Shown: piece by piece, positions 63,419 to 63,986 of the stretch | How the letters are laid out: every line of letters begins with the position of its first letter | Position numbering within the stretch: the first letter of the stretch is position 1 | Source of the DNA: Halogeometricum limi | Lineage (GTDB): Archaea; Halobacteriota; Halobacteria; Halobacteriales; Haloferacaceae | Assembly (NCBI RefSeq): GCF_900115785.1 | Contig: NZ_FOYS01000002.1 | Span: 620,001 to 684,000, forward strand | DNA: 64,000 nucleotides | Direction of reading: 5' to 3' | Program-made: the position numbers and the translations under genes | Notes under the pieces: generated by a model | The model's database searches: none | Told to the model about the DNA's origin: nothing | Seen by the model: only the letters and a program-made list of their open reading frames with translations

Positions 63419-63444
63419 AGTAGTCCCGGGCGGATTCGAACCGC
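63419..63444. repeat. 26-base direct copy of the tRNA-Gln 3' end
   Basis: Positions 63419-63444 are identical to 63519-63544, exactly 100 bases away. The second copy is the 3' end of tRNA-Gln (acceptor strand and T-arm) plus its flank. The first copy has no matching acceptor 5' strand, so it is not a second tRNA gene. Such duplications usually mark integration sites for elements using tRNA 3' ends; here only 74 bases lie between the copies. Confidence 0.85.
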
Positions 63445-63482
63445 GAAGACTCGAATCCTCTCGTCTTCTGGGCTCGAATCCG
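63431..63482. repeat. palindrome with T-arm sequence downstream of tRNA-Gln
   Basis: CGGATTCGA (63431-63439) pairs with TCGAATCCG (63474-63482), a 52-base palindrome. Inside it GAAGAC (63445-63450) pairs with GTCTTC (63463-63468). One arm is part of the tRNA 3' copy described at 63419-63444. The design matches the palindrome behind tRNA-Thr at 1762-1812. Confidence 0.7.
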
Positions 63483-63520
63483 AGTTGTAACTATCACTGC
63501 ACGCTGAGGCTCGCAGAAAG

Positions 63521-63593
63521 TAGTCCCGGGCGGATTCGAACCGCCGTCAATGGCTCCAAAGGCCATTATGATTGGCCGCTACACCACGGGACT
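63521..63593 (-). tRNA. tRNA-Gln (anticodon TTG)
   Basis: Cloverleaf read on the minus strand. Acceptor AGTCCCG (63593-63587) pairs with CGGGACT (63528-63522) and is followed by discriminator A at 63521. Anticodon stem ATGGC/GCCAT encloses CTTTGGA, giving TTG for CAA glutamine codons. T stem and loop GGCGGTTCGAATCCGCC are perfect. No intron. Its upstream flank consists of repeats rather than an obvious TATA box. Confidence 0.97.
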
Positions 63594-63717
63594 CATCGCT
63601 TCGCTCTTCGTCCCGTGTACCTCGCAGTTCCTTCGGAACTGCTCACCACCACGGGACTTCACTCCGTTCGTCCCGTATAGCGTGCGATTCCGTCGAATCG
63701 CTCACCACCACGGGACT
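63594..63717 (-). repeat. two tandem hairpins that begin with the tRNA-Gln 5' sequence
   Basis: Read on the minus strand, units at 63717-63659 (59 bases) and 63658-63594 (65 bases) precede the tRNA directly. Each starts AGTCCCGTGGTGGTGAGC, where the tRNA starts AGTCCCGTGGTGTAGC. Each folds with an outer stem of seven or eight pairs (GTCCCGT/ACGGGAC) and an inner hairpin: GCGATTC/GAATCGC in the first, GCAGTTCC/GGAACTGC in the second. The inner stems differ in sequence but keep pairing. The flank 63718-63782 holds nothing recognised. Confidence 0.75.
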
Positions 63718-63782
63718 GTATCCTCTACTCGTGGTGCGACCTTTGAAAAGCCATCGGGTTCGAATCGCCGTGCCACTCGGCG

Positions 63783-63986
63783 TCAGTCGGTTCCGTCGGC
63801 GGCCGACAACCGGCGGTCGACGGAGAACCCGCCGCAGTCGGGGCAGACGTGATACTGGACGTCGTAGGCGCTCCCGCATCCGCGACAGACGTACGGAAAC
63901 TCCGACGTCTCCGACGCCTCGCTTCGGTCACCGGGTTCGACGCCCGCGAGACGAAGGAGACGTGTTATCGTCGCTGCTCCTACCAT
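63783..63986 (-). CDS. small zinc-ribbon protein
   Basis: 67 residues. A short hydrophobic-basic start (MVGAATITRLLRLAGVEPGD) is followed by CRGCGSAYDVQYHVCPDCGG, two CxxC pairs spaced as in zinc ribbons. Function unknown; the N-terminal helix might mediate docking to a partner or membrane. ATG at 63986, 14 bases before the window end, so its promoter is outside. Confidence 0.8.
   Translation of the reverse strand: MVGAATITRLLRLAGVEPGDRSEASETSEFPYVCRGCGSAYDVQYHVCPDCGGFSVDRRLSAADGTD

Follow-up and report, generated by a model that had tools for sequence, protein, structure and literature searches.

Tandem hairpin units that copy the 5' end of the adjoining tRNA lie in the predicted leaders of haloarchaeal tRNA-Gln and tRNA-Gly genes

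The window, a stretch of 64,000 nucleotides from Halogeometricum limi, carries an intact tRNA-Gln gene on its minus strand, preceded by a TATA-like box and two tandem hairpin units. In the direction of transcription the following features were identified.

63741-63750, minus strand: TATA-like box CTTTTCAAAG, the promoter element of the transcription unit that holds tRNA-Gln, conserved in the genus.
63659-63717, minus strand: predicted leader unit 1, comprising a copy of the tRNA 5' end, an inner hairpin, an anti-acceptor arm and a purine-rich spacer (66.7 bits with covariance model R1).
63706-63717, minus strand: copy 1 of nt 1-12 of tRNA-Gln (AGTCCCGTGGTG).
63684-63701, minus strand: inner hairpin of unit 1, GCGATTC GACG GAATCGC.
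63670-63678, minus strand: anti-acceptor arm of unit 1, ATACGGGAC, assigned from the fold and complementary to nt 2-8 of the tRNA.
63594-63658, minus strand: predicted leader unit 2, comprising a copy of the tRNA 5' end, an inner hairpin, an anti-acceptor arm and a spacer (78.7 bits with R1).
63647-63658, minus strand: copy 2 of nt 1-12 of tRNA-Gln (AGTCCCGTGGTG).
63624-63642, minus strand: inner hairpin of unit 2, GCAGTTCC GAA GGAACTGC.
63610-63617, minus strand: anti-acceptor arm of unit 2, CACGGGAC, complementary to nt 2-9 of the tRNA.
63520-63593, minus strand: intact tRNA-Gln gene (anticodon TTG) without an intron (ARAGORN; Rfam RF00005, 61.7 bits).

The sequence AGTCCCGTGGTG is present in triplicate (63706-63717, 63647-63658 and 63582-63593), the last copy being the start of the tRNA itself. 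In both units GTGA comes next, then an inner hairpin that varies between them, a short stretch of variable sequence, the (C)ACGGGAC arm and finally a purine-rich spacer, which is GAACGGAGTGA or GAAGAGCGAAGCGATG. Two tandem units, each opening with nt 1-12 of the tRNA, with inner stems that differ in sequence and are still paired, had been reported in a preliminary description of this DNA; both are present at 63594-63717, and both inner stems (GCGATTC/GAATCGC and GCAGTTCC/GGAACTGC) pair perfectly. The closing arm, described there as the complement of the acceptor strand, is indeed complementary to the tRNA 5' end but goes beyond a mere acceptor 3' strand: it complements the first 7-8 nt of the tRNA and so reaches 1-2 bases past the acceptor stem. 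No plausible gene was found over 63594-63717. The region folded with a z-score of -6.2 relative to dinucleotide shuffles, none of 200 shuffles being as good; this value, together with the hundreds of homologous units described below, rules out a chance origin of the hairpins. Tandem duplication followed by drift was also rejected, on the paired divergence of the inner stems.

Two features of the surroundings were recorded in addition. The motifs GAGCGAAGCGA and GAACGNAGTGAG, common in 63594-63609, in 63659-63669 and in haloarchaeal intergenic regions generally, can each be written as a mini-hairpin, its GNA triloop flanked by GA pairs (GA-GC-GAA-GC-GA), an arrangement that repeats the GA-stem-GA theme of the units. 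At 63783-63986, also on the minus strand, a 67-aa zinc-ribbon-like protein with two CxxC pairs is encoded, apparently as it is upstream of tRNA-Gln in relatives (e.g. L009 and L011).

The preliminary description had found no conventional promoter for the tRNA. That impression arose because the promoter sits upstream of the units: box CTTTTCAAAG starts 33 nt ahead of unit 1 and is kept as GAACCCGATGGCTTTTCAAAG in three relatives (L002, L004 and L005) and in near-identical form in two more (L009 and L011). At tRNA-Gln loci with units the CTATTGT box lies 32-45 nt from the first unit and 97-226 nt from the tRNA, while at loci without units the same 32-45 nt separate the box from the tRNA itself. 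Since the first unit occupies the normal promoter-to-tRNA distance, the units are, as judged from this spacing, part of the leader of the tRNA precursor, and transcription is predicted to start upstream of them; for Halogeometricum limi itself we infer such transcription. Differential RNA-seq in Haloferax volcanii revealed an exceptionally long leader of 300 nt for tRNA-Gly(CCC), which was reported without explanation, and no proximal transcription start site for tRNA-Gly(TCC) (PMC4983044). The same two tRNA-Gly species bear units in the genomes studied here, and the Haloferax data thus support the leader reading indirectly.

A search of 40 related genomes with the window region returned 30 loci. 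Single units whose inner stems differ in sequence and remain paired were found 5' of tRNA-Gln at eight of them (L002-L005, L010-L012 and L018); one relative (L009) has a degraded unit there and many have none. The search with covariance model R1, built from nine units, was positive for 210 of the 392 haloarchaeal genomes examined and for members of 59 of 95 genera; as with every set of more than 40 genomes, it ran with fast filters that lose weak matches. The covariance search for further copies that had been suggested earlier therefore yielded them in more than half of the genomes, with pairing conserved. Of 393 genomes sampled across the phylum, 34 gave R1 matches; all of these belong to one order, that of the window, and no sampled genome outside this order gave a match. 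Among 128 match loci fetched for inspection, which spanned all score levels, 114 had a unit directly 5' of tRNA-Gln or tRNA-Gly under a strict copy criterion; the other 14 were mostly duplicates or weaker copies ahead of the same tRNAs, one match preceding tRNA-Thr(CGT) (L464) and two having no recognised tRNA directly behind (L261 and L452). Nearly all unit-bearing tRNAs are Gly(TCC), Gly(CCC) or Gln(TTG), with Gln(CTG), Gly(GCC) and Glu(CTC) as rare cases. One, two, three and four units occur at 102, 33, 6 and 2 loci, respectively, and unit lengths are mostly 48-70 nt. A pattern for the inner core had 17 matches in seven genomes, 13 of them within Gly or Gln leaders, and the reversed control pattern had none in the same genomes. 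Related modules are rarely found outside tRNAs, in non-tRNA hairpin arrays (L261 and L373). An exact 15-mer scan of contigs gave mostly random bacterial matches, with useful loci in Natrialba sp. SSL1 and Haladaptatus sp. DYF46.

Within the genome of Halogeometricum limi R1 has two matches, both ahead of tRNA-Gln. Other candidate copies there (at C8), with two or three mismatches and not linked to a tRNA, were rejected as resembling chance matches in coding sequence. Upstream of tRNA-Gly(TCC) in the same genome lie two or three more units missed by R1, with other inner types (TTGAG..GTCCGTCGATGCA and TGTCACCACC..GGTGGTGG), and upstream of tRNA-Gly(CCC), beginning 85 nt ahead of the gene, 24 nt of the 5' part of tRNA-Gly are repeated and run on into degenerate tRNA-like sequence. 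The tRNA-Gln(TTG) genes of many haloarchaea (L014 and many of L203-L228) contain introns, either about 29-31 nt or about 113 nt long; that of the window has none.

The most striking feature of the units is the three-way concordance between 5' arm, 3' arm and adjoining tRNA. The acceptor strands of haloarchaeal tRNA-Gly vary (GCGCCG, GCGGCG, GCACCG, GTGCCG, GCGCTG). Of 47 Gly units, 45 have a 5' arm identical to the acceptor strand of the adjoining tRNA, and none of 188 comparisons with the other Gly acceptors gave identity; the 3' arm is the exact complement of its own acceptor in 37 of 47, as against 1 of 188. One genome (G026) has two Gly genes with different acceptors, each with matching units. 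GTGGT occupies nt 7-11 in most unit-bearing tRNAs. This suggests microhomology as the means of attachment, and such a means is compatible with either a functional or a neutral origin.

Across 103 distinct units, in an alignment that was fitted to the structure, 97.6% of pair cells held standard pairs versus 81% in shuffles, and two-sided changes occurred at 13 of 16 pairs versus 9.8, at most 2 of 500 shuffles being as high. Pairing fell to 23-51% when the alignment was slid, and the covariation score of 0.475 compares with 0.193 for shuffles and at most 0.107 for slid alignments. Because of that fitting, palindromes were also sought in a model-free manner in 194 distinct units, and isolated mismatches were scored. 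On the tRNA-sense strand these were 17 G-U, 4 A-C and 13 others, an asymmetry of about 20 partly non-independent events in which two of the four A-C mismatches come from a sequence that is not a unit (L040). The control, 250-nt flanks 3' of tRNAs, showed no such asymmetry (G-U 76, A-C 75). A process acting on DNA is expected to give the two kinds equally, so that the G-U excess on the sense strand points to RNA, and it appears from these counts that selection acts on the transcript. The unpaired GTGGTGA is found in 82 of 99 distinct units and the GA on the 3' side is nearly constant. Unit 2 is 96-98% identical among three congeners as against 35-65% in the adjacent leader, and the unit 2 of the window shares 48-49 of 50 nt with the units of L002 and L004. 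The earlier proposal of selection for structure over drift is accordingly supported by the covariation and by the wobble bias.

Unit content differs among congeners. At tRNA-Gly(CCC) in L394-L397 (G210, G322, G295 and G253) congeneric species have no unit or three: L395 and L397 have three each, and L396 has none, with a clean empty site where the units are absent. Comparison of G322 with G253 showed units 2 and 3 in opposite order, like interchangeable cassettes. The inner hairpins at the same tRNAs fall into three types.

Copies of the tRNA 3' end were also found downstream of tRNA genes, including that of the window.

63419-63482, minus strand: downstream hairpin with a copy of the tRNA-Gln 3' end, comprising an anti-T-arm (63471-63482), an inner hairpin (63445-63469) and the 3'-end copy (63419-63444).

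With a criterion of at least 16 of 20 nt within about 300 nt downstream, 18 of 46 tRNA genes of Halogeometricum limi (G000) and 20 of 43 and 24 of 45 of two other genomes (G388 and G314) carry a copy of their own 3' end (loci L031-L081 and L271-L360), the values for mismatched tRNA/flank pairs being 53 of 1966, 62 of 1720 and 44 of 1890. The copies lie 40-220 nt downstream, sometimes in tandem, and take the form of an anti-T-arm, an inner hairpin and the T-arm with the acceptor 3' strand; inner modules recur, e.g. CAGGGAGCGAACGnAGTGAGCGACCG. At one tRNA-Gln gene (L014, G017) two tandem copies have different inner modules. At another (L021, G031) the acceptor reads GCTCC/GGAGC, a change that recurs in the tandem copies downstream, so that the 3' copies also track their own tRNA. 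They lack the wobble asymmetry, are apparently distinct from the 5' units and are apparently undescribed.

As a tentative first choice, the units are read here as a cis-acting leader which mimics the acceptor stem and, by strand exchange with it, provides a checkpoint on folding and maturation. The precursor would read unit, unit, tRNA from the upstream start. Folded alone, each unit would consist of an outer stem resembling the acceptor, an inner hairpin and, between them, an internal loop (GUGGUGA / GA), and its arms would be exchangeable with the acceptor stem because they are identical and complementary to the first bases of the tRNA. In one state the unit would be closed and the cloverleaf formed; in the other the copy would pair with the tRNA 3' strand and the anti-acceptor arm with the tRNA 5' strand. 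A nearly isoenergetic exchange between the two might act in cis through the access of RNase P, the requirement for exact identity would keep the arms matched to the tRNA. Gain, loss and reordering of units would result from the tRNA ends being repeated, which allows recombination or slippage between them.

ViennaRNA predictions at 42 C, which ignore tertiary structure, salt and co-transcriptional kinetics, put the probability of the acceptor stem at about 1.0 when the tRNA stands alone; with its own unit in front this fell to 0.31 for Gln and 0.11 for Gly, whereas a unit of the other tRNA left it at 0.93-1.0. The median energy difference between the states was -1.0 to -2.6 kcal/mol. The predicted exchange follows trivially from the sequence identity and therefore indicates capability rather than use, and we infer exchange in vivo and an effect on maturation. 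Bacterial RNase P is reported to be inhibited by pairing of the leader with the tRNA 3' end (PMC9433436). The earlier suggestion of cis regulators of tRNA-Gln is compatible with a checkpoint but too narrow, because units also precede tRNA-Gly and occasionally tRNA-Thr and tRNA-Glu, each copying its own tRNA. Against a checkpoint, the units are dispensable, many genomes being without them and congeners differing; one place can hold inner hairpins of three types, and similar hairpins are seen away from tRNAs (L261 and L373).

The main and strongest rival, which is quite possible, is that the units are neutral or selfish DNA hairpins. Intergenic modules would have joined tRNA 5' ends by GTGGT microhomology, and template switching during replication would copy the tRNA end into the arms and maintain their complementarity, giving covariation without an RNA function. 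Template switching is described as creating and maintaining RNA hairpins with apparent compensatory changes (PMC8794818), and quasi-palindrome mutations are known from highly transcribed DNA (PMC3820800). The GTGGT at nt 7-11 of most unit-bearing tRNAs, the variation of unit presence and order among congeners with clean empty sites, the modules in non-tRNA arrays, the three inner types at the same tRNAs, and hairpin copies of the 3' end at about half of the tRNA genes in three genomes all fit this explanation. It is opposed by the wobble bias of the 5' units, absent from the 3' flanks, by their strong confinement to a few tRNA leaders (the 13 of 17 core-pattern matches) and by their far greater conservation than that of the adjacent leader. 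A wider form of the preferred checkpoint, a self-referential leader switch in which the number of units sets the maturation of tRNA-Gly and tRNA-Gln and in which, the 3' copies included, haloarchaeal tRNA genes are framed by end-copy hairpins of one common making, is considered unlikely.

Footprints of site-specific integration, i.e. cassettes or decayed elements at the tRNA 5' end that left att copies, are improbable. Archaeal integrases of the pTN3 type do use the 5' half of a tRNA as attB (PMC8371274), the units behave like shuffled cassettes, and 9-12-nt tRNA ends flank every unit as direct repeats. The units are geneless, about 48-70 nt long and up to four in tandem, att sites leave the anti-acceptor arm and the conserved GTGGTGA/GA core unexplained, and the tRNA retains its original promoter, whereas the integrase promoter drives it after pTN3-like integration (PMC8371274). 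Neither an integrase nor an excised circle was seen in the sequences read. Very doubtful, too, is a trans-acting product, in which RNase P or another nuclease would free the units as small-RNA tRNA mimics or decoys: they look like an acceptor minihelix and are predicted to share the transcript of the tRNA, but they have no T-arm, no CCA end and no conserved discriminator base. Equally doubtful is a platform for an RNA-binding protein, e.g. an L7Ae-type kink-turn of the GUGGUGA/GA loop recruiting RNase P or a modification complex, since the tandem GA, nearly invariant on either side of the inner stem, speaks for it but the canonical C-stem directly after GA is missing, the 3' loop being GA followed by four variable nt, and such a stem is impossible in about a third of the units.

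The leader of a tRNA is commonly regarded as a short, disposable sequence. The pairing preserved across many genera suggests a structured kind of tRNA leader which could influence the folding or trimming of the tRNA. If functional, the units, which copy a tRNA, evolve together with it and occur in over half of the haloarchaeal species sampled, would constitute a new class of structured RNA and offer a handle on the control of tRNA-Gly and tRNA-Gln supply. If neutral, they would be an exceptionally clear natural system for separating selection on RNA from the "pseudo-covariation" of template switching, which is an open problem in RNA gene finding.

None of the Rfam 15 covariance models covered the units, the tRNA at 63521-63593 being the only match besides a chance isrG match elsewhere. 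No description of such leader units was found in the open literature, and they are apparently undescribed so far. C/D box sRNAs (RUGAUGA with CUGA) were considered and rejected, the GTGGTGA of the units having no CUGA partner. T-boxes are bacterial mRNA leaders which sense tRNA in trans and interact with its acceptor sequence. They have in common with the units an interaction of leader RNA with the tRNA acceptor, but the units precede the tRNA gene itself and contain no T-box motif. Duplicated att sites of archaeal integrases are likewise direct repeats of a tRNA end beside an intact tRNA; the units differ in being tandem hairpins without integrase or cargo, with a complementary arm that tracks the tRNA and the original promoter kept. 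REPIN/MITE elements, PATE and the small mobile repeats of haloarchaea (PMC3116915, PMC3119063) are also short, palindromic and geneless, but the units are not dispersed, their position and orientation are fixed, and their outer arms differ with each tRNA instead of forming the constant terminal inverted repeats of MITE/REPIN elements. The bases at which a target-site duplication would be sought, the 9-12-nt tRNA ends on either side of every unit, are at once part of the unit stem. Of the small mobile palindromes proposed in the preliminary description, the gain, loss and shuffling of units and the rare modules elsewhere (L261 and L373) agree with mobility, and the tie of most copies to tRNA leaders does not. 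Hairpins arising by template switching (PMC8794818) similarly have palindromic arms that stay complementary despite sequence change, and the units are distinguished from them by one recurrent architecture, specific leaders, the sense-strand wobble bias and the conserved unpaired core. The bacterial pre-tRNAs whose leaders pair with the 3' end, with possible control of 5' maturation, show the same kind of leader-acceptor pairing; there the acceptor stem is lengthened by a few bases of the leader (PMC9433436), whereas the haloarchaeal units duplicate the acceptor strand as a whole hairpin.
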